From NCBI GenBank assembly GCA_031286005.1, contig JAITVC010000297.1, positions 1 through 14,138 on the forward strand: a stretch of 14,138 nt of DNA, written 5' to 3'. The notes under the pieces were generated by a model. The model worked only from the letters and a program-made list of their open reading frames with translations, had not been told where the DNA came from and did not search any database. This document shows positions 1,545-14,120 of the stretch, one piece after another. The number at the start of each line of letters is the position of its first letter. Positions within the stretch are counted from its first letter, which is position 1. Source of the stretch: Bacteroidales bacterium. GTDB taxonomy: Bacteria; Bacteroidota; Bacteroidia; Bacteroidales; P3. The position numbers and the translations under genes are program-made.

Positions 1545-2939
1545 TCATTTTGTTTTAAAATCTAAATACACCGTATTTTTTGCATTAACACCATCTTCAC
1601 TGTAAAACCACTGTGCCGGAAAAGAGATGGAGTATTTTTTATTGGGCTCTAACTGTACTTTCAAAACCCATTCTGTTTTGGTTTCTTTATTCCATTCTGC
1701 ACCCAAAGCTTTTGGCATATAATCTTTTCCTTGTTTACCGGAAGATGTGCCGTATGGTATGGTGAACATGGGTTTGTCAAATTTGATAACGATTTCAGTC
1801 GTTGAAGCGTCAACATTTTGGTCGCCGTTCGTAATATTAGCAACCAACATTGTTGGCTTCTTTTTTTGTCGCTCTTTTTCCATTCTTTTAGGATCCATCT
1901 GATTTAAGGCATAAACAATTTCAGGCATAAAACTTCTTAAAGTAGGATATGTATCACGATTTTCTTCGTATTGGTCTAATAAATTGTAAAGTTCTTCAAT
2001 CCAAATAAAACCGTTGATTTTTTGTCTGGACAAATAATCTTGGGGATTCTCCTGAAAATGGTCTGCCAAATATTGGATAACACTTGCTCTAACTAAAACT
2101 TCAAACAACATTATTTGTGGATCGCCATAATCCATTCTTTTAAACGTTTTCTTTTTCTGTTTGAAAAAAGCATTTGCTTTCTCTTGCATTTTAGGATAAT
2201 TTTCCGTAATCAGAGGATTGCAAAACGAATGACAAAATTCGTGAACGATCAATTCAATTGCCCAATCGTCTTCAAAAACAGGATTATTCAAACTATCTAT
2301 TCCGCAAATAATTATTGAGTATAAATCTTCTTTCCCGTCAAGATATTCCACATTGGGACCGTAATTATTATTTCCATTCGACAAACTAATAACTAGGTTA
2401 AAATTGCCTTCCGGCACTTCCCCGAAAAAGCTCTCGAACCATTTCATATCAATTTTTTTGAAATATTCATTGGCTGCAATCTCAACTTTTTCTTTTATGG
2501 TTTGCGTTTGAAAAAAATCGTGAAACTTTGTTACGGTATAAAAATCATTCAACAATTCTATAAAACGGGGCAGTGCATCTCTATCCCAGCGACTATCCAA
2601 ACTGTTTTCTTTCACATTCGGAATTAGTGAAATCTTTCCTTCAATAATTTGTAAATGAACTGCCATGTTCATCGGAGCATCATAAGCAATGCTATGTTTT
2701 TTGCGATACATTTTGCAGTATTCAACCACTTCGTGATTCTTGTACGGCTCAAAATACTTGATTACACTATCCACAAAAACAGAAAATTCATTGGGCGTAT
2801 ATTCCTCTATTTCTGCCAAACGAAAAACGGTACTCAATAATTCACAACGTTCATCAACTTTTGCATTCAGTTCTATTTTTTGTGCAAAAACGAATGAATT
2901 TATAACAAACAATACGATTAAAGATGTTAACTTTTTCAT
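1545..2939 (-). CDS. Secreted DUF4932-type HExxH zinc peptidase-like protein with C-terminal Ig-like domain
   Basis: The 464-aa protein has a Sec signal peptide (MKKLTSLIVLFVINSFVFAQ, probable cleavage after AQ). The central region carries VHEFCHSFCNPL with HEFCH at 233-237, a zinc-peptidase HExxH motif in the form typical of DUF4932. A likely third-ligand region is FEVLVRA near E280. Residues about 362-464 (ANITNGDQNVDASTTEIVIK, then FDKPM) resemble an SbsA-type bacterial Ig-like domain. It should act in the periplasm or outside the cell as a metal-dependent peptidase; the substrate is unknown. It is last in a run CPBP - two HExxH paralogs - DUF4932 and starts 37 bp after the preceding stop. 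No separate TAnnTTTG box was seen, so it is probably cotranscribed. The ATG at 2939 is supported by the signal peptide directly after it. Confidence 0.85.
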   Translation of the reverse strand: MKKLTSLIVLFVINSFVFAQKIELNAKVDERCELLSTVFRLAEIEEYTPNEFSVFVDSVIKYFEPYKNHEVVEYCKMYRKKHSIAYDAPMNMAVHLQIIEGKISLIPNVKENSLDSRWDRDALPRFIELLNDFYTVTKFHDFFQTQTIKEKVEIAANEYFKKIDMKWFESFFGEVPEGNFNLVISLSNGNNNYGPNVEYLDGKEDLYSIIICGIDSLNNPVFEDDWAIELIVHEFCHSFCNPLITENYPKMQEKANAFFKQKKKTFKRMDYGDPQIMLFEVLVRASVIQYLADHFQENPQDYLSRQKINGFIWIEELYNLLDQYEENRDTYPTLRSFMPEIVYALNQMDPKRMEKERQKKKPTMLVANITNGDQNVDASTTEIVIKFDKPMFTIPYGTSSGKQGKDYMPKALGAEWNKETKTEWVLKVQLEPNKKYSISFPAQWFYSEDGVNAKNTVYLDFKTK

Positions 2940-2976
2940 GTTTATTTTGTTGTTTAATTGAGAATAGACTATTGGG

Positions 2977-4227
2977 TTATTCGCCTTTTTCTATTTTATA
3001 AATTCCATCTGCGTTAACTACTTTCCAGCCTTTATTCAGTTGGATTTCGTAGCCATCTCCTTTGATAATAGCGCCGTTTATTTCCTTTGGCGGAAGCAGG
3101 TGAAATGCCGACCAGTCGTTTAGCCGAACGATGTTCTCAGCTTTGACTTCACCCCATTCTCCCTTGAGAGTTATGTTTCGTAATAGTACGGCATTATCAA
3201 ATGCTATTACACGGTCGTTCATGTTATACGTGATATAAATACCATTGTTCATAACGCTAAGTTTCGATGTTTCGGGCTTAAGTAAGGCTTCAAATGCAAC
3301 GACATCGCCAAAAGATTTTAGCGCTTCTTTTTCTGCGCATAGAATTTTATCATAGCTAAATTTGTCAAACAGTTTGTTCAAATGTGAACTGTCGACAGTA
3401 ATGTCATATTCCGGATTTGATTTTTTAAGCAAAAAAATCATACCTTTGTTTAAATCCTTATCTTGTTTCCATTGTGGATACAATCCATCTAAAAGTATAG
3501 CGTAAGCAGTCCCTGTGGCAAATCCGAATGTATTGGTGTATCCAATATTGACATCATAGTTTAACCTGTTTTTTGCATACGAAAGGATACTATCCATAGA
3601 TAGTTTCATACCCATATATGCAGCCAAACCTTCGCTCAACTCAAACAAATCTTCGTTATTGTTTGGATAAAGGTTTTGGCGATAAGCGCGTATATGTAGC
3701 GCGTCTTGTAAACTTTCCACATCCCCGTCCAATGCCTGTTGCAAGGCTTTCATTTCCATTTGAAGCAAAGTTCGTCCTTCAGTTTCGTCCATATAAAAAT
3801 TTGTAGACATGAAATTTTGAATACCCAAACTATTTTGGTGCAGGTGAAATATTTCGTGAGCCAACAGACTTATACGTTCTTCGCAAGAACTATTCATTAG
3901 CCACATGTGAACAATAGTCACATATCTTTTGCCGTTAAATTCAAAAGTGCTGTTTGCTATAGGCACCTTGTTATCCCACGGTTCCTCTTTCATGGGTTGA
4001 ACATTTCCGTTTTCGATGGCTGTGAAATACATCTTGTTTGCAACATGATCAATAATGATTATAGGCGCATTCAGCGCGACATTCCATAAGTTCCGAGATT
4101 CGGGCTTATTCAATATTTCAGCCATTTGTTTCAGGCTTTCTTCCATTGTTTTTTCGCAAGGCGATTGTTGTCCATAACCTGTATGGATGGCTGACAAGAG
4201 CAATAATGCTATAAGAATTTGTTTCAT
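2977..4227 (-). CDS. Secreted HExxH metallopeptidase-like protein, paralog 2
   Basis: The 416-aa protein opens with a signal peptide (MKQILIALLLLSAIHTGYGQ). There is a Cys soon after it but no lipobox. LLAHEIFHLH places HEIFH at 124-128. SEGLAAYMG with E199 fits the third zinc ligand of gluzincins of the peptidase-MA type (HExxH followed by EGLAxY). The C-terminus after about 320 is beta-rich and lacks a recognised domain. It is clearly a tandem duplicate of the next gene upstream (4273-5529): by eye roughly three quarters of residues match and the C-terminal 20 or so are almost identical. I do not recognise a named family. A zinc-dependent secreted peptidase is the best reading; the substrate is unknown. 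Confidence 0.8.
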   Translation of the reverse strand: MKQILIALLLLSAIHTGYGQQSPCEKTMEESLKQMAEILNKPESRNLWNVALNAPIIIIDHVANKMYFTAIENGNVQPMKEEPWDNKVPIANSTFEFNGKRYVTIVHMWLMNSSCEERISLLAHEIFHLHQNSLGIQNFMSTNFYMDETEGRTLLQMEMKALQQALDGDVESLQDALHIRAYRQNLYPNNNEDLFELSEGLAAYMGMKLSMDSILSYAKNRLNYDVNIGYTNTFGFATGTAYAILLDGLYPQWKQDKDLNKGMIFLLKKSNPEYDITVDSSHLNKLFDKFSYDKILCAEKEALKSFGDVVAFEALLKPETSKLSVMNNGIYITYNMNDRVIAFDNAVLLRNITLKGEWGEVKAENIVRLNDWSAFHLLPPKEINGAIIKGDGYEIQLNKGWKVVNADGIYKIEKGE

Positions 4228-4272
4228 TTTATATTGTTTTTTAAGTGTTAATTTTCAAAGAATGCAATCTGT

Positions 4273-5529
4273 TTATTCGTCTTTTTCTATTTTATAAATT
4301 CCATCTGCGTTAACTACTTTCCAGCCTTTGTTCAATTGAATTTCGTAGCCGTCGCCTTTGATAATACCAGCGTTTGTTTCTGTTGGAGGATGCAGGTAAA
4401 ACGCCGACCAATTGTTTAACCGAATGATATTTTTAGTTTTGATTTCGCCCCATTCTCCCTTGATGGTTATGTTTCGCAACAATACGGCATTGTTCAATGC
4501 GATTACGCGGTCATTCGGATTGTACATGAAATTAATGCCATTGTTTATAACACTCAGTTTGGGCGTTTCGGGTTTAAGCAGGGCTTCAAACGCAGCGACA
4601 TCGCCAAAAGATTTTAACGCTTCCTTTTCTGTGGACAAAATTTTGCTATAACCGTATTTGTCAAACAGCTTGTTTAAATGTAAACTGTCAACTGTAACCA
4701 CATATTTCGGATTCGACTTTTTCAACAAAAAAATCATCCCTTTGTTTAAATCTTTATCTTGTTTCCATTGCGGATACAATCCATCCAAAAGTGTAGCATA
4801 GGCCGTGCCTGTAGCATAACCAAATGCGTTGGCATACCCGCTATTGATATTGTAGTTCAACCTGTTTTTTGCATACGAAAGGATGCTATCCGTAGATAGC
4901 TTCATTCCGGTATATTCAGCCAAACCTTCATTCAACTCATATAAATCTTCATTATTGTCGGGATAAAGACTTTGACGGTATGTGCGTATATACAATGCAT
5001 CGTATAAACTTTCCAAATTTCCATATAATGCCTGTTGCAGGGCTTTCATTTCCATTTGAAGCAAGGTTCTTCCTTGAATTTCGTCCATATAAAAATTCGT
5101 GGACATTGCATTCCGGATTCCCAAATTGTTTTGGTGCAGGTGGAATATTTCGTGAGCCAGCAGATTTACCCGCCCTTTGCAAGAACTGTGCATTAGTGAA
5201 GGATACATAATAATGACCTGCCTTTTGCCGTCATATTCCACAAAACTGTTTGCTAAAGGCACTTTATTATTCCACGCCTCCTCTTTAATGGGTTGAACGT
5301 TTCCGTTTTCGATGGCGGTGAAATACATCTTGTTTTCGTTGGGATTAATAATGATTATGGGCGCATTCAGTGCGATATTCCACAAGTTTTTAACCTCTTT
5401 TCTGTTCAGTGTTTCCGCCGTTTGATTGAGGCTTTCTTCCATCGTTTTTTCGCAGGGCGAGGGTTGTCCAAAGCCTGTAAAAATTGCTAAATGGAGTAAT
5501 AGTGCGGTGAGAAGAATTGATTTTTTCAT
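4273..5529 (-). CDS. Secreted HExxH metallopeptidase-like protein, paralog 1
   Basis: The 418-aa protein has a signal peptide (MKKSILLTALLLHLAIFTGF, cleavage near GQ), HEIFH at 126-130 and NEGLAEYTG with E201 as likely third zinc ligand. It matches the downstream paralog over its whole length without large gaps. The most diverged stretch is residues about 94-123, just before HExxH, where gluzincins place the substrate-binding edge strand. The active-site segments (LLAHEIFHLHQN, GRTLLQMEMKALQQAL, EDLYELNEGLAEY) are almost unchanged. This suggests both copies keep catalysis and differ in what they bind, which is inference. It starts 23 bp after the CPBP gene, in the same presumed operon. Confidence 0.8.
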   Translation of the reverse strand: MKKSILLTALLLHLAIFTGFGQPSPCEKTMEESLNQTAETLNRKEVKNLWNIALNAPIIIINPNENKMYFTAIENGNVQPIKEEAWNNKVPLANSFVEYDGKRQVIIMYPSLMHSSCKGRVNLLAHEIFHLHQNNLGIRNAMSTNFYMDEIQGRTLLQMEMKALQQALYGNLESLYDALYIRTYRQSLYPDNNEDLYELNEGLAEYTGMKLSTDSILSYAKNRLNYNINSGYANAFGYATGTAYATLLDGLYPQWKQDKDLNKGMIFLLKKSNPKYVVTVDSLHLNKLFDKYGYSKILSTEKEALKSFGDVAAFEALLKPETPKLSVINNGINFMYNPNDRVIALNNAVLLRNITIKGEWGEIKTKNIIRLNNWSAFYLHPPTETNAGIIKGDGYEIQLNKGWKVVNADGIYKIEKDE

Positions 5530-6331: not shown

Positions 6332-7186
6332 TCATTCGTCCAACATCAATTTCTTTTGAGATTTCAGTTTTCGGAGTTGTTCTTTTTGAATTTCCTCAAT
6401 GCTTTTGTTTGGTGTTGGCTGCTTTTCGGGCAATACGCCATTGACACGTTCGATGGTCTGCCGTACTTCGTGTCCCACTTGATGATGTGCTTCAATCGCC
6501 GCATCTGTGCCTTGAATCTGCTCTTTTTTAATCTTCTCATCGGCAAGCGATATGCGGAATAAATTCGCTATAAGTTCCTGACTGTTCATGTAGTCAAGAA
6601 TCTTTTGTTTAGGTGTGAGACCTTTTCGGCTATGAATATCTTGCACGGTTTCGCCGCCATAAAGTCCCATATATCCGGCATTTTGGAACTCTGCAAATTC
6701 TTCATCACTGATAACTCCGGCGTTGTGGGCTGTTTCCGCAAGCATCTGATTCCATTGCTTAATATCGCCACAAATAACGAGCCGTTTATTGTCCTCATCC
6801 AATTGGTTGAAATAATCTGCTACTTCTTGTCTACGGGTTTGAATGGCAAAATAGGTTTGTCCCGTGGCGATAATTTCCTTACGGGGATCGCCGTTTTGCA
6901 CAATCAGATAACAGGCATAGCGGGAAAGTTTGTAGTCTGTCACTCTTCGTTTACCACCCTTGCCATGTTCTATCAATTTGCTGACCTCAACAAATTGATC
7001 AAGCACATTAAATCCACTGTTTTGGCAGGCAAGCATTGCTCTATCCAACACTTTACTGAAGTTGCGCCATTGTACATATTCCAGCACAGGTGCTAATTCA
7101 CGTGCAAGCCAATATTCATGACCGGACTCATCCGTATGTTTGATTTGTTCAAATCCTTGATATTCTTTGGCTATTAAATTACTCAT
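6332..7186 (-). CDS. dinD: DNA damage-inducible protein D (DinD), BRO-type N-terminal domain
   Basis: The 284-aa protein compares with 274 aa in E. coli DinD. The N-terminal domain (about 1-110) has the BRO/DinD pattern YWLARELAPVLEYVQWRNFS, then DYKLSRYACYLIVQNGDPRK and GQTYFAIQTRRQE. The middle contains YMGLYGGETVQDIHSRKGL, also characteristic of DinD. The C-terminus is charged and probably helical. E. coli DinD is SOS-induced and blocks RecA filament activity, and BRO-N domains also occur in phage antirepressors. It lies 28 bp after the second permease stop and before a promoter for the next genes, so as placed it would be read with the efflux operon. No own promoter or SOS box was recognised. 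It marks the start of the foreign cargo in the operon. Confidence 0.9.
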   Translation of the reverse strand: MSNLIAKEYQGFEQIKHTDESGHEYWLARELAPVLEYVQWRNFSKVLDRAMLACQNSGFNVLDQFVEVSKLIEHGKGGKRRVTDYKLSRYACYLIVQNGDPRKEIIATGQTYFAIQTRRQEVADYFNQLDEDNKRLVICGDIKQWNQMLAETAHNAGVISDEEFAEFQNAGYMGLYGGETVQDIHSRKGLTPKQKILDYMNSQELIANLFRISLADEKIKKEQIQGTDAAIEAHHQVGHEVRQTIERVNGVLPEKQPTPNKSIEEIQKEQLRKLKSQKKLMLDE

Positions 7187-7214: not shown

Positions 7215-8459
7215 TTACTCATCCCGTAGTGCGTCAATCGCCTTAATCTGCATGGCTCGCCAGGCGGGGAGCAATCCGGCTAAAAGGCTTAGGAATATTA
7301 ATACTATGGCTGCGGAAATGGCTGTCCAGAATGGAATCATGAAGCCCGATGTTTCGCCGCCACCGCCACTGATGCCTAAATCGGCTATTTGGAGAACGAG
7401 TACGCCGAAGGCTATGCCGAGTAATCCGGAAATTCCGGTTAGCACGGCGGTCTCTGATAAGATTTGCGACAGAATTTGAATCGGCCTTGCGCCGAGCGCA
7501 CGCCTTACGCCGATTTCTTGGGTGCGTTCTTTTACGGTTACCATCATGATATTGCTCACACCTATCACACCGGCAAGCAACGTGCCAAGTCCTACTATCC
7601 AAACCAAGATGTTAATACCCGTAAACAGGTTTTCGAACATCATAAACTGTTTTTCAACATTCATAACGAAGAGAGCTTTTTTATCGTGAGGGGCAATTTG
7701 GTGTTCACGCTTGATGATTTGTGCGATTTTTTCTTCCATATCGCTGATGCGATGACCTTTCTTTGCGGTAAAGACCATCAAACCTACCCAATCACCGGTT
7801 TGTGTAATCAAGGTCATGGTTGAAAACGGAAGCACCATCATATCGTTATCATTCCCGCCAACGTTCATAGTTTCGGAAACGGGTTTATATACGCCTATCA
7901 CTTGAAACAGCACATTGTTCCAACGGATGGTTTGCCCAATAGGGTCTTCGCCGTTTAGAAACAGTGTTTCGTATACTCGCTCGCCAATCACGCACACCTT
8001 TCGCTTTTCCCGCACATCAATATCGTTGATATAACGTCCTTTTAGGATAATGGGGGTATGTATCTTTGCGTAAGTCGGCGTAACGCCTTTCAACTGCGCT
8101 TCTTTTTCGCGCTCACCTCTCACCAAAACACCATCCCACCAAGTGTTTACCGGTGCGATATGCTCTATTTCGGGAACCTGTTTTTTGAGAATATTCACAT
8201 CCTTATACTGCATATTCCAACGTCGACCTTTGCGGAAACCTTTGTAAGGCTCAGCCGTGGTGTTTGTAAACATGAGTCCCGAATTGGTTGCAATCCCGCC
8301 AATTTGTTTCTTGAGAAAGTAGTCCATGCCGTTGCCGCCGCCAATCAAGGCCACGAGCATGAAGATACCCCAAAACACGCCAAATGCGGTGAGTAGACTA
8401 CGGGTTTTGTTGCGGGTAATCGTTTGTAGGATTTCTGTCCATTTATCGAGGTCAAACAT
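7215..8459 (-). CDS. MacB/FtsX-type ABC transporter permease (second permease)
   Basis: The 414-aa protein has the MacB layout. A cytoplasmic N-terminal helix (MFDLDKWTEILQTITRNKTR) precedes TM1 at about 21-41. A large periplasmic MacB_PCD-like domain of about 230 residues follows. Three C-terminal TM segments lie at about 283-307, 330-357 and 372-400. The cytoplasmic loop with VKERTQEIGVRRALGAR is the hallmark coupling region, and the C-terminus is the typical AIDALRDE. It would pair with the other permease (8886-10133) and the ATPase (10232-10891) to drive mechanotransmission-type efflux with an adaptor. It is separated from the first permease only by the inverted-repeat-bounded unit. Its ATG at 8459 lies 5 bp from the unit's end. 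Confidence 0.93.
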   Translation of the reverse strand: MFDLDKWTEILQTITRNKTRSLLTAFGVFWGIFMLVALIGGGNGMDYFLKKQIGGIATNSGLMFTNTTAEPYKGFRKGRRWNMQYKDVNILKKQVPEIEHIAPVNTWWDGVLVRGEREKEAQLKGVTPTYAKIHTPIILKGRYINDIDVREKRKVCVIGERVYETLFLNGEDPIGQTIRWNNVLFQVIGVYKPVSETMNVGGNDNDMMVLPFSTMTLITQTGDWVGLMVFTAKKGHRISDMEEKIAQIIKREHQIAPHDKKALFVMNVEKQFMMFENLFTGINILVWIVGLGTLLAGVIGVSNIMMVTVKERTQEIGVRRALGARPIQILSQILSETAVLTGISGLLGIAFGVLVLQIADLGISGGGGETSGFMIPFWTAISAAIVLIFLSLLAGLLPAWRAMQIKAIDALRDE

Positions 8460-8464
8460 AGGTT

Positions 8465-8496
8465 TAATTGAGAATTGAGAATGGAAAATTGAGAAT
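8465..8496. repeat. Terminal inverted repeat, left arm
   Basis: It pairs with 8857-8888 over 32 bp with three mismatches. It is built of degenerate TTGAGAAT/TGGAAAAT units and contains the end of the four-helix-bundle gene (TAA at 8496-8498). Confidence 0.85.
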
Positions 8497-8858
8497 TATT
8501 TTTTTAGATTTTGCTTAGATGTTTTTAGGATTGAAACCAATAGACTGATGATTTCGTTGATTTCGGGCTGAATAGATTCGTGTTCTTTTGATGTTAAATA
8601 CTCGCTATCACAGAGAAGTTGAAGCCAGTATTCCGTTTCATTCGCTTCTTTTAGGGCGATATTTATTTTATTGATGAAATCTGCCTTGGATTGTGCGTGT
8701 TCAGACTCTTTAACCAATGCACCAATGGATGTTCCGGAACGCAAAACTTGTTTGGATAGAACAAATTCTCTTTTTTCTAATGATAAATATTGATATAATT
8801 TCACAATTCTTAATGCAAAACTATATGACTTATCTTTAATAATATTTTCCTTTTTCAT
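8496..8858 (-). CDS. Four-helix-bundle protein, S23/IVP family (23S rRNA intervening-sequence protein-like)
   Basis: From the ATG at 8858 the protein has 120 aa, the usual family length of about 115-125. The family pattern is clear: KDKSYSFALRIVKLYQYL at the start, LRSGTSIGALVKES at 39-52, and EANETEYWLQLL at 71-82. The predicted fold is four antiparallel helices; relatives include the Avd protein of diversity-generating retroelements, which binds nucleic acid. Family members are often found in insertions in 23S rRNA genes and in small dispersed units; no cellular function is established. Two upstream in-frame starts (ATG at 8879, TTG at 8885) would add MENGELR or MRMENGELR, which is just translated inverted repeat, so I prefer 8858. 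It lies between two permease genes with no sign of a functional tie to efflux. Confidence 0.88.
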   Translation of the reverse strand: MKKENIIKDKSYSFALRIVKLYQYLSLEKREFVLSKQVLRSGTSIGALVKESEHAQSKADFINKINIALKEANETEYWLQLLCDSEYLTSKEHESIQPEINEIISLLVSILKTSKQNLKK

Positions 8859-8888
8859 TCTCAATTCTCCATTTTCCATTCTCAATTA
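8857..8888. repeat. Terminal inverted repeat, right arm
   Basis: Partner of 8465-8496. Its outer three bases are the stop codon of the first permease, so insertion here left that protein's reading frame ending exactly at the boundary. Confidence 0.85.
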
Positions 8889-10133
8889 TTTAGCTGACAG
8901 TGCTGTCACCGGCTTTATTCTCACGGCGTTGCGGGCGGGGAAGAATCCGGCGAGAGTGCCTGCGATGACTAATGTTAGGGTGGCGCCGATGGCTATGCCC
9001 ATGTCTACTGTTGGGTTCTTAAAGGCCATGCCTCCCCCACCCTGCGCTTCGAGTATGGCATTCAATGCCTCTGTTACACCAATGCCTAAGAACATGCCTA
9101 TATAGCCAAAAACACCTGTGATGATTATCGATTCCAACACAACCACCTTCAAAATAGATAGTGGGGAAGCGCCTATGGCTTTGCGAATACCAAATTCTTT
9201 GGTGCGCTCTTTCACGCTTATCAACATGATATTGCCCACGCCGACAATGCCTGAAATGAGTGTAAACAGTCCGATAACCCATATTGCTATGGACATTACG
9301 CCAAGAATCATATTTGTTTCCAAATAGCTTTCGTAGCGGTTCCAAATCCAAATGGCGCCATCGTCGGTAACATCAAATTGTTTTCTCGTAGCCAATGCCT
9401 GCGTGACGGCTTTGTTGAATTGCTCGTTATCTTCTGCCGTGTTAAGACCCTCTACGATGAGTGACATTCCTCGAATGAACGGCCCTGCGTTGAACACAAT
9501 TCGCCCGGTGGTGAAAGGAACAAGAATAGTTTGGTTTCGGCCTTCGTCGTCTTCATTAACATCATAAACACCGACTACTTGAAACAATACCGAACCTATT
9601 TTAATCATTTGTCCCAATGGCTCTTTGTTGGGAAACAAAATCTCTGCCGTTTTCGGATGAATGATGACAACTTTGCGTTTTTCGTTGAGGTCTTGTTGAT
9701 TGATAAACCGTCCGTTTTTGCCGGAAACCTTGAATCCATCGGTCATACTTGCTTCCGGATACATGGCCGAAATCTGATTGGTGGTGTAGTTTGTTCCTAC
9801 GGAAACGGTTTGATTCCTGAAATTCACGTAAGGCGCAATCACAGAAATAGTTTTCGGGAATTGTTGTTTGATATACTCCACATCCGTCAAATCAAAGCGG
9901 ATTTGTCTCCCTATTTTAAAGCCCTGATACGCTTTAGCCGTCCAACCGGGGAATACTTTTACAACATTCACCGTTTGCCCTTCAAAATTAGACCTGACGC
10001 CGTTCATCAGTCCGTTTCCCGCACCCAGCAAGACGATGAGCATAAAGATTCCCCAAGCTACGGCGAAGCCGGTTAAGGCCGTCCTTAGTTTGTTCTTTTT
10101 TAGAGTTGTCAGTATTTCGTATATTGTGTCCAT
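8886..10133 (-). CDS. MacB/FtsX-type ABC transporter permease (first permease)
   Basis: The 415-aa protein starts MDTIYEILTTLKKNKLRTAL. TM1 is at about 18-38, a periplasmic MacB_PCD-like domain follows, and three C-terminal TM segments flank SVKERTKEFGIRKAIGASPL, the conserved cytoplasmic loop. The end is FFPARNAVRIKPVTALSAK, typical of the family. An in-frame start at 10205 would add 24 residues encoded by the intergenic inverted repeat (MRGSFAISYSSHPAPRHL), which does not look like protein sequence, so 10133 is preferred. It forms a heteromeric permease pair with the gene at 7215-8459. Two unequal permeases with one ATPase and an adaptor is a common Bacteroidota layout. Confidence 0.92.
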   Translation of the reverse strand: MDTIYEILTTLKKNKLRTALTGFAVAWGIFMLIVLLGAGNGLMNGVRSNFEGQTVNVVKVFPGWTAKAYQGFKIGRQIRFDLTDVEYIKQQFPKTISVIAPYVNFRNQTVSVGTNYTTNQISAMYPEASMTDGFKVSGKNGRFINQQDLNEKRKVVIIHPKTAEILFPNKEPLGQMIKIGSVLFQVVGVYDVNEDDEGRNQTILVPFTTGRIVFNAGPFIRGMSLIVEGLNTAEDNEQFNKAVTQALATRKQFDVTDDGAIWIWNRYESYLETNMILGVMSIAIWVIGLFTLISGIVGVGNIMLISVKERTKEFGIRKAIGASPLSILKVVVLESIIITGVFGYIGMFLGIGVTEALNAILEAQGGGGMAFKNPTVDMGIAIGATLTLVIAGTLAGFFPARNAVRIKPVTALSAK

Positions 10134-10146
10134 CGGTATGCTTTTT

Positions 10147-10227
10147 GGTACGAGGTGGCGGGGTGCGGGGTGCGAGGAGTACGATATGGCGAAGCTACCT
10201 CGCACCTCGTACCCAACACCCCGTACC
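10147..10227. repeat. GC-rich imperfect inverted repeat in the ATPase-permease gap
   Basis: Arms at 10147-10177 and 10197-10227 pair imperfectly over about 31 nt around a 19-nt loop. They are composed of variants of GGTACGAGGTGCGGGGTGCG. No T-run follows on the minus strand, so it does not look like an intrinsic terminator of the operon. It resembles a dispersed intergenic repeat that has entered the operon, and could form a hairpin in the mRNA that changes the ATPase-to-permease ratio. Confidence 0.75.
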
Positions 10228-13146: not shown

Positions 13147-13220
13147 TTAAAAGGTGAAAGGTTAAGGGGGGAAGGATAGTAAATTGTGAAGAATGGAAAA
13201 TGGCCTGATAAATTCCATTT

Positions 13221-13300
13221 TGGCAACATAAATGGCAACGTAAATGATACAGTAAATCTTGAAATGATACAGTAAACGATACAGTAAATGATACAGTAAA
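13221..13300. repeat. Degenerate 12-bp tandem repeat (TGATACAGTAAA type)
   Basis: Units are TGGCAACATAAA (13221), TGGCAACGTAAA (13233), TGATACAGTAAA (13245), an 8-bp break, then TGATACAGTAAA (13265), CGATACAGTAAA (13277) and TGATACAGTAAA (13289). All end in TAAA. No long open frame runs through it. It sits in the gene-free stretch before the ATPase promoter. Confidence 0.88.
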
Positions 13301-13369
13301 TTCCAATTAAAAATTACGAATTAAAAATTAAAAGACTGATAATCATTTGTGAAATATTAGATCGATAGA

Positions 13370-13420: not shown

Positions 13421-13464
13421 TAGTGGAGATGTAGTGGACTTGTAGTGGAGTTGTAGTGGAGTTG
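13421..13464. repeat. Four tandem 11-bp units (TAGTGGAGTTG)
   Basis: Units start at 13421 (TAGTGGAGATG), 13432 (TAGTGGACTTG), 13443 and 13454 (both TAGTGGAGTTG). The array ends 4 bp before the stop codon of the YqeY gene. Perfect recent units suggest slippage-driven length change. Confidence 0.92.
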
Positions 13465-13944: not shown

Positions 13945-13973
13945 CGAAAAAAATTGAGAATGGCGAATGGAAA

Positions 13974-14005
13974 TTTGGTGGTTTCGGAAATTATTTGTAA
14001 CTTTG
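13974..14005 (+). promoter_or_regulatory. Divergent plus-strand promoter (TTTG-N20-TAACTTTG)
   Basis: TTTG (13974-13977) and TAACTTTG (13998-14005) with a 20-bp spacer are a full Bacteroidota consensus on the plus strand, pointing out of the window. The following sequence to 14120 has no long open frame and could be a leader of about 110 nt. Confidence 0.6.
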
Positions 14006-14120
14006 TGAAATATTGTGGACGAATTTGACTGCTTGCAACCACGTAAAAAAACGCTAAAACGCATATTTTGAATTGTTTTGCAAGTAATAGAATTTTCCAC
14101 AGGAGGAGAGTTCTTTTTTT

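Follow-up and report, generated by a model that had tools for sequence, protein, structure and literature searches.

A small S23-type gene unit between inverted heptamer arrays in a Bacteroidales permease operon, a candidate for an overlooked kind of mobile element

The window, i.e., the whole analysed stretch of 14,138 bp from a Bacteroidales bacterium, carries a 424-bp inverted-repeat unit with an S23-type gene between two permease genes (8465–8888), just as the original prediction had described (Table 1). Its arms (8465–8496 and 8857–8888) pair at 29 of 32 positions, in keeping with the three mismatches first counted (G.A, A.C, and G.T on the sense strand), and the outer edge of the unit is indeed the stop codon of the upstream permease, with TAA at 8886–8888 ending the upstream arm. 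On the other side, only 5 nt separate the downstream arm from the ATG of the next permease (8457–8459). The S23 gene is the single ORF of at least 60 aa in the unit and encodes a product of 120 aa from the ATG at 8858, which overlaps the upstream arm by two bases; its frame stays open up to a TTG at 8885 in the arm, with the TTG at 8885 and an ATG at 8879 as candidate starts within the arm. The gene was therefore correctly said to start at one repeat, while placing its stop "inside" the other was generous, as the stop codon (8496–8498) overlaps that arm by one base.

Table 1. Coordinates of the S23 unit, its host genes, and a related array in the window.
Feature	Positions	Strand	Remark
Upstream (5′, sense) arm, GAGAATT-type heptamer array	8857..8888	-	Outer 3 bases are the upstream permease stop codon
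S23 / 23S_rRNA_IVP four-helix-bundle gene	8496..8858	-	PF05635 and TIGR02436 above cut-offs; PDB 2rld E 6e-44
Downstream (3′, sense) arm, inverted heptamer array	8465..8496	-	1-nt overlap with S23 stop codon
Upstream host gene, MacB/FtsX-type ABC permease (insertion context)	8886..10205	-	PF12704 and PF02687
Downstream host gene, MacB/FtsX-type ABC permease (insertion context)	7215..8459	-	PF12704 and PF02687
Solitary short heptamer array without S23, upstream of YqeY gene	13952..13977	+	88% identical to 8466-8491

The arms are more than plain inverted repeats, since both are tandem arrays of a 7-nt word, a feature that the original prediction had missed. Their identity at a lag of 7 nt is 80%, versus a mean of 25% at seven other lags, and they are built from the words GAGAATT, GAGAATG, GAAAATG, and GAAAATT in an order that differs between the two sides. 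The related repeat fragment announced near 13951–13975 was recovered as the solitary array (88% identity over 26 nt), which by eye belongs to the same heptamer family, whereas the fragment near 2955–2966 is short (76% over 21 nt at 2949–2969) and was given no weight. Across the 996 kb formed by the window and the loci of 80 relatives, 24 inverted repeats scored at least 34 with a loop of at least 8, versus one in mononucleotide-shuffled sequence; two of these 24 (i.e., in the window and in locus L002) enclose S23 genes, which are the only two S23 genes found there by the profile.

The sole Rfam match at gathering score in the window is a SAM-II riboswitch (RF01726, 61.7 bits; 14009–14067, plus strand) near the solitary heptamer array, and the unit itself sits between permeases and outside rRNA. 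Two further short tandem arrays are present in the window (13217–13301, period 12; 13421–13464, period 11), as well as a tandem duplicate (2977–5529) of a 416–418-aa protein with, by eye, a signal-like N-terminus and no Pfam match. Directly after the second permease lies a gene with a BRO-N domain (6332–7186, minus strand), of a type often found in phages.

The window S23 gene scored 95.8 bits against PF05635 (cut-off 33.8) and 103.7 bits against TIGR02436 (cut-off 24), and its PDB relatives 2rld (E 6e-44) and 2gsc (weak, E 0.049) each have five chains listed. The Pfam scan of 13 window proteins revealed no transposase, as had been predicted, and neither a Y1/RAYT transposase nor a reverse transcriptase was among them. 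The scan also bears on the possibility that the unit belongs to a diversity-generating retroelement, with the S23 protein in the role of Avd, or to another reverse-transcriptase system. A weak match to the Avd model (E 2.9e-5) and the structural homology between S23 and Avd described in the available text of PMC10053308 would suit such an origin, but the score of 24.3 bits lies far below the Avd cut-off of 80 and none of the 13 scanned proteins is a reverse transcriptase, so that we regard it as scarcely credible. Of the proposed membership of Avd in the same family, a distant homology thus stands, and the Avd model itself is not matched at its cut-off.

Relatives of the locus were found via the first permease, and the best 80 of 584 were used, the closest among which (L001) shows 69% identity in that gene. 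Both permeases could be placed in 78 of the 80 loci (the second one is lacking in L045 and L060), and none of these 78 gaps holds an S23 gene, as the longest measures 188 nt and 44 are, by hand count, at most 8 nt long. The empty site anticipated for the window unit was therefore found in 78 relatives, and a second empty site came to light elsewhere (the L240 site, see below). The only S23 gene found across the 80 loci is located after the second permease in L002. In L001 and L054, the same permease gap is occupied by an inverted heptamer unit that lacks S23, and heptamer arrays are seen there in L009, L063, L079, and others when inspected by eye. When the window and L240 sites were compared by eye with empty relatives, no target duplication was visible in what are short and diverged gaps. 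The gap also looks like a hot spot for small repeats, in that it carries unrelated REP-like palindromes in close relatives (seen by eye at 7252–7323 in L002 and 7255–7315 in L003).

In the wider phylum, PF05635 matched 116 of 148 Bacteroidota genomes at E 0.001 (113 above the cut-off), with up to 16 matches per genome. A set of 116 S23 hits (including those of the window and L002) was reduced to 111 units by dropping four at contig edges and one duplicate; the loci sampled were those with the best E-values, meaning that weak family members are under-sampled and that some units are near-identical orthologues. Each unit was given an arm score, i.e., the best inverted match between the 250 nt upstream and the 250 nt downstream of the gene. 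This score reached at least 30 in 66 of the 111 units (59.5%), as compared to 1.2% of 2220 combinations in which flanks were swapped between units, 0.7% of 427 shifted windows from the same loci, 2 of 755 other genes, and none of 208 small genes. With coding sequence excluded and more units included, 44.7% of 188 units were armed versus 1.05% of 2000 swaps. Because swapping the flanks abolishes the match, the units carry arm sequences of their own. The 45 units that scored below 30 count against a reading of the unit as a mobile element.

The period of seven extends to these arms as well. In the 43 units scoring at least 36, left-arm identity was 0.547, 0.56, and 0.545 at lags 7, 14, and 21, respectively (with fewer units at long lags), as compared to 0.23–0.36 at the other lags from 2 to 20. 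S23 genes in Bacteroidota are thus commonly flanked by heptamer arrays, each unit having its own heptamer. Since the arrays are private to the unit, a search with the 32-bp ends, as originally suggested, should miss most relatives. Two loci of 9 kb each (L131 and L132) hold clusters of three and four S23 units, with differing heptamers where these are clear.

The units show a preferred placement among their neighbors. Both neighboring genes run along with S23 in 84 of 105 units, both run opposite in 12, and 9 are mixed (the other 6 of the 111 have no callable neighbor gene and were left out), versus 351, 90, and 261, respectively, among 702 control gene triples. Co-directional neighbors are therefore in excess (96 of 105 vs. 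441 of 702; Fisher p-value of 3.7e-10), whereas the sense bias among units with co-directional neighbors (84 of 96) is weak (p-value of 0.085). An open frame of at least 100 codons precedes S23 on the same strand in 59 of the 66 well-armed units, and for 46 of these 59 no more than 10 nt lie between the stop codon of that frame and the outer end of the left arm (median distance of 0, quartiles –4 and +5). The right arm ends a median of 9.5 nt before the next ATG (54 units). The genes used here are open frames rather than annotated genes, and short operon gaps by themselves bring an arm near a stop codon.

When the heptamers were aligned by rotation, the motif NNRTNAG emerged on the sense strand of the left arm. 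Its information content in 55 Bacteroidota left arms was 2.36 bits, versus 1.81 (sd 0.07, maximum 1.93 of 60) with positions permuted, and 26 held-out arms from other phyla gave 1.43 versus 0.82 (sd 0.24; reached by 4 of 500 permutations), with 0.78 in the reverse orientation. A like motif with TNAG was obtained from right arms alone (2.40 vs. 2.02 bits, sd 0.05, maximum 2.16 of 60; 57 arms), which have no upstream stop codon inside. Using the right-arm model, 16 of 41 units had their upstream stop codon in TNAG register, meaning that TAA or TGA forms the first three bases of TNAG or TAG the last three, against an expected 1 in 7 (p-value of 9e-5), and with the left-arm model 26 of 45 stops fell at two favored offsets (p-value of 0.001 for unevenness). 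The stop codon upstream of the window unit itself is out of this register, which counts against the mobile-element reading. Arrays inserted at gene ends could elsewhere supply the stop codon themselves, but at the window and L240 sites the gene ends at the same position in relatives, and the stop there is therefore original. The idea that stop codons alone account for the TNAG motif was discarded, since its N position is not depleted in C (0.19) although TCAG contains no stop. TAG stops were not significantly in excess upstream of S23 genes (29 of 79 vs. 77 of 275; p-value of 0.16), and the published GGGAATC arrays do not fit NNRTNAG. Taken together, what had been called a self-contained unit that lands in operon gaps without breaking genes holds up in its gap placement, its S23-free sites, its co-directional neighbors, and its position at stop codons. 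A terminal sequence shared between units did not hold up, the heptamers being private, and autonomy and movement are what the replacement of units and the empty sites suggest.

The S23 protein proved to be under strong purifying selection, with a mean dN/dS of 0.03–0.15 over ten orthologous sites (0.06 overall). Among 98 representatives, a few polar residues are near-invariant (in window domain numbering: Q31, 0.98; R34, 0.98; S38, 0.97; E45, 0.96; E68, 1.00), and position N42 (0.89) is L in the window protein. The other positions of the bundle are mostly variable around these five, and the conserved Q/R/S/E/E set could, judging from the alignment, form a catalytic or ligand site. Two properties of the protein count against the mobile-element reading: the median net charge across the 98 representatives is 0, and S23 is not known to have a nuclease or transferase motif.

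The turnover of units was followed within one genus, using 82 units (of the 83 matches listed) from 8 genomes, of which 74 fall in 17 shared sites and 8 are single. Two kinds of unit were found at 6 of the 17 shared sites, where flanks are mostly 89–96% identical (85–94% at the first site), while nucleotide identity falls to 56–67% in the S23 core and to 44–68% in the arms; background identity for such alignments is about 50%. Related species with similar flanks can thus carry, at one and the same site, a gene and arms that differ as a block. At one replaced site, G105 and G153 are alike in the core (97%) and the right arm (100%), whereas their left arms differ (54%); arms and core hence do not always change together, a point against the mobile-element reading. 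At another, the cores of four genomes are 96–99.7% identical with flanks of 89–95% (one distal G031 stretch, 69–70%), whereas the G153 core shows 60% identity and arms that by eye are of the same heptamer kind. At the L240 site, the G043 unit follows directly after the stop codon and is absent from the six relatives aligned (L275, being incomplete, was left out), of which G105 has a bare AGCTGAT/AGCTGAC array in its place. The flank of the single L261 site matches G043:C44 (near 230000; L294, L284) at 96%, beside a weak S23 match (23.6 bits) that is perhaps a decayed unit. Homologous recombination could also have produced the unit replacements, and as many unit sites are common to the whole genus, either units move slowly or they are inherited vertically and changed by homologous recombination.

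The relation between protein and heptamer was examined in the 119 of 188 units with a clear tract, reduced to 98 representatives below 85% protein identity, with orthologous sites and coding DNA excluded. Protein and heptamer similarity were correlated with a Mantel r of 0.140 that none of 2000 permutations reached (sd 0.032, maximum 0.122), in a permutation that ignores phylogeny; restricting the comparison to different genomes again gave 0.140 (4660 pairs). Heptamer similarity averages about 0.51 at 30–45% protein identity and 0.63 at 60–70% (28 pairs). At unrelated sites, heptamer type therefore tends to follow the relatedness of the S23 protein. The effect is small, and fits either a protein that recognizes the array or arms that move together with their gene.

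These data can be held against the view that the unit is a resident regulatory cassette, in which a vertically inherited host S23 gene regulates its own operon, with the protein binding the arrays in its own transcript as a TRAP-like ring and the arms controlling translation or stability of the neighbors. The strong purifying selection (dN/dS of 0.06), the many sites kept throughout the genus, the sense orientation in 84 of 96 co-directional placements, and the protein–heptamer correlation would all be expected of such a cassette. Set against these, the sense bias over ordinary neighbors is weak (p-value of 0.085), units are replaced or absent in close relatives, the host genes vary among units at the plasmid loci presented below, and one of those units sits in 23S rRNA. 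We therefore rate a regulatory cassette as unlikely.

Heptamer arrays also occur on their own. They were searched for in stretches chosen without regard to S23 (i.e., ends or fixed positions of contig C1) from 20 of the 32 S23-negative genomes and from 20 genomes with at least 8 S23 matches, which represent extremes that may differ in clade. Period-7 tracts scoring at least 12 numbered 0 in 765,814 nt of the S23-negative and 29 in 752,716 nt of the S23-rich genomes, where they occurred in 10 of the 20 genomes and, in 28 of 29 cases, not within 300 nt of an S23 gene. Corresponding counts were 0 versus 7 for period 8 and 9 versus 2 for period 9, and for period 7 they were 6 versus 42 at a threshold of 10 and 0 versus 20 with a coding filter and a threshold of 14. 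Within the 80 Bacteroidales loci, a non-coding tract was found in 9 of 33 S23-negative versus 18 of 47 S23-positive genomes, which is not a significant difference (p-value of 0.34; 0.065 before the coding filter). A rule by which heptamer arrays occur only in S23-bearing genomes is accordingly not claimed.

Such solitary arrays might indicate that replication slippage generates heptamer arrays in the operon gaps of some lineages, and that S23 genes merely settle there. The inverted arrays that occupy the same permease gap without S23 (L001 and L054), the bare array at the L240 site in G105, and the non-coding arrays in 9 of 33 S23-free Bacteroidales genomes are in line with this idea. Slippage nevertheless leaves unexplained why the two inverted sides of an S23 gene match each other and not other units, why heptamer and protein are correlated, and why period-7 tracts in the wider phylum number 0 in 766 kb of 20 S23-negative genomes versus 29 in 753 kb of 20 S23-rich ones. 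It strikes us as quite improbable for these reasons.

A tblastn search with the window protein yielded 29 plasmid and 2 phage-collection records, of which 16 of 31 were examined. The 14 plasmid loci among them stem from Cyanobacteriota (8), Chloroflexota (2), Spirochaetota (1), Bacillota (1), Bacteroidota (1), and Pseudomonadota (1). Inverted arms were present at all 14 examined plasmid S23 loci (of the 29 records), with scores of 32–78 and lag-7 identities of 0.65–1.0, whereas 8 of 240 swapped controls for the plasmid and phage-collection loci reached 30. In A/T-rich arms, identity at lags 6 and 8 was also raised (e.g., 0.67 vs. 0.58 and 0.59 in L190; also in L187 and L194), making the period there less sure. 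The inverted-heptamer architecture thus recurs at examined plasmid loci of five other phyla, including an S23 gene in 23S rRNA (see below). Inverted arms were absent at both phage-collection loci (scores of 16 and 18), which speaks against the mobile-element reading.

Several neighborhoods in this set deserve mention by themselves. Plasmid units L185, L190, L191, L193, and L194 split hsdS/hsdR, cas2/cas1, csx2/cas1, or DUF1156/Swt1-HEPN pairs, the last of which is split by S23 units in two phyla. Although several plasmid units thus sit in restriction or CRISPR operons, a reading of the unit as a defense system was rejected, as there was no PADLOC match. Both phage-collection loci have neighbors (M18 peptidase, CHAP-dockerin, FGGY kinase) that look bacterial rather than phage-borne, and a Gut-1 RNA (RF01706) ca. 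130 nt upstream of S23 (1280–1350 in L196 and 1293–1365 in L197; MT835815 and MT835590). This RNA near armless S23 genes is possibly a second kind of S23-associated RNA.

In plasmid AZO_p2 of Azospirillum lipoferum 4B (L195), the S23 gene lies inside 23S rRNA: bases 271–1424 correspond to positions 1–1208 of the LSU model and bases 1893–3318 to positions 1225–2762, with the S23 match at 1501–1818 in between. The insertion point is presumably in the helix-45 region of 23S rRNA, and the arms consist of heptamers of the GACGGAT/GACAGAG kind. Of 14 Bacteroidota loci, most of which have weak arms or none, not one was found to carry its S23 gene within rRNA. According to the available text of PMC4990558, the intervening sequence (IVS) of Coxiella 23S rRNA measures 428 nt, has a 28-bp terminal stem and an S23p ORF, is cleaved by RNase III, and has GACAGAT heptamers, two or three in tandem, preceding the ORF; the same text describes Xanthomonas S23p as a toroidal homopentamer and cites older ideas by which IVSs were either mobile elements or what transposition had left behind. 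Operon-gap unit and rRNA IVS are alike in gene, size, inverted ends, and heptamer periodicity, and because the Azospirillum S23 gene resides in 23S rRNA with heptamer arms, both appear to form one class. The family link to 23S rRNA insertions drawn in the original prediction was thus right, and is strengthened by this locus.

The likeness to rRNA IVSs raises the question of whether the arms serve only as an RNase III stem that removes the insert from the transcript, with S23 as a dispensable passenger. Folding of the minus strand from 8440 to 8910, a check proposed at the outset, placed the whole ORF in a loop closed by the arm stem in both the MFE and the centroid structure (–100.2 kcal/mol, z of –3.73, with 0 of 100 shuffles as good), and RNase III excision of the Coxiella IVS, with its S23 ORF and 28-bp stem, is described in the available text of PMC4990558. 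Arm mismatches in 148 units, in contrast, showed no excess of G.U over A.C (222 vs. 241; p-value of 0.40), so that nothing indicates selection for RNA pairing of the arms. Moreover, S23 is strongly conserved, and there is the correlation between heptamer class and protein, which would not be expected to persist in a passenger after neutral sequence had diverged. A pure RNA-processing element hence seems rather unlikely.

We consider it reasonably probable that the window unit is an S23-type (i.e., IVS-type) mobile element outside rRNA, the protein of which recognizes the heptamer ends; movement, recognition, and excision are what we infer from comparing sequences, and the fact that no movement of a unit was observed counts against it. 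Such an element would consist of one S23 gene between inverted heptamer arrays, and in the window it sits where the first permease ends, at its stop codon. The S23 protein (pentameric as far as described in PMC4990558) would recognize its cognate heptamer array at both ends, which would then act like terminal inverted repeats, and may direct where the unit is copied, namely to sites whose TNAG motifs are compatible and which are often stop codons, while host enzymes would provide the chemistry of copying. Pairing of the arms in the transcript may give a long stem open to RNase III cleavage, which is published for rRNA IVSs, and the host transcript would thereby tolerate the insertion. Clear arrays have a median length of 40 upstream and 35 downstream, and since five subunits times 7 nt gives 35 nt, we may speculate that an S23 ring touches five heptamers. 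More tentatively, and with considerable doubt, S23 proteins might confer specificity on a broad family of minimal mobile elements that includes the rRNA IVSs, each with a clade-specific heptamer (often NNRTNAG), whose inverted arrays would be placed, copied, and spread at stop codons (TAAG, TGAG, TTAG) with reading frames left intact, and which might be the source of many bacterial heptamer repeats.

Among the closest known systems are the 23S rRNA IVSs of Coxiella and Leptospira (PMC4990558, available text), sharing an S23 ORF, size (428 nt in Coxiella, ca. 425 nt here), complementary termini (a 28-bp stem there, 32 nt here), sporadic presence, and heptamers upstream of the ORF (GACAGAT there). 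In contrast, the window unit lies between two protein genes at a stop codon and not in rRNA, and the S23 genes studied here are under purifying selection, whereas the Coxiella ORF is described there as decaying. The TAACTGA (PMC4679880) and GGGAATC (PMC4692102) repeats likewise form 7-nt tandem arrays in gene gaps, and 70–75 convergent inverted heptamer pairs are reported for Xanthomonas in these heptamer-repeat papers; a link to S23 is not described in their available text, whereas here the array encloses S23 and correlates with it. Avd of diversity-generating retroelements is also a four-helix bundle and a distant homolog, but its model scores far below cut-off and the 13 window proteins include no reverse transcriptase. 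Insertion sequences and MITEs resemble the unit in their terminal inverted repeats, empty sites in relatives, and S23-less copies, but differ in that the unit has no transposase, ends that vary by unit, and no target duplication seen by eye. REP/RAYT systems share small palindromic intergenic repeats (with REP-like palindromes in the same gap of L002 and L003), but the window proteins include no RAYT-type transposase, and in place of a short hairpin the unit has a gene enclosed by long inverted arrays.

Heptamer arrays (PMC4679880, PMC4692102) and S23 IVSs (PMC4990558) are thus already known separately, as far as the available text of these papers shows, and PMC4990558 notes heptamers beside one S23 ORF. 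Likewise from available text, PMC10053308 notes the likeness of PF05635 and Avd, while PMC8700078 and PMC5524665 merely list four helix bundle genes, one of which is placed by PMC5524665 between guanylate kinase and nucleotidyltransferase genes. In the open full-text literature (subscription papers and preprints being outside its scope), no link of S23 genes outside rRNA to heptamer arrays was found among the papers listed.

The recurrence of this layout with differing repeat letters across bacterial groups suggests that a kind of small mobile element has been overlooked. The tie between heptamer arrays and S23 would give PF05635, the function of which is described as unknown in the available text of PMC4990558, a concrete role, i.e., recognition of the array, as suggested by sequence patterns. 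It would place the rRNA IVSs in a larger class together with elements from protein operons, and offer a candidate cause for bacterial heptamer repeats. If true, this would be a mobile element that avoids damage to its host by sitting on stop codons.
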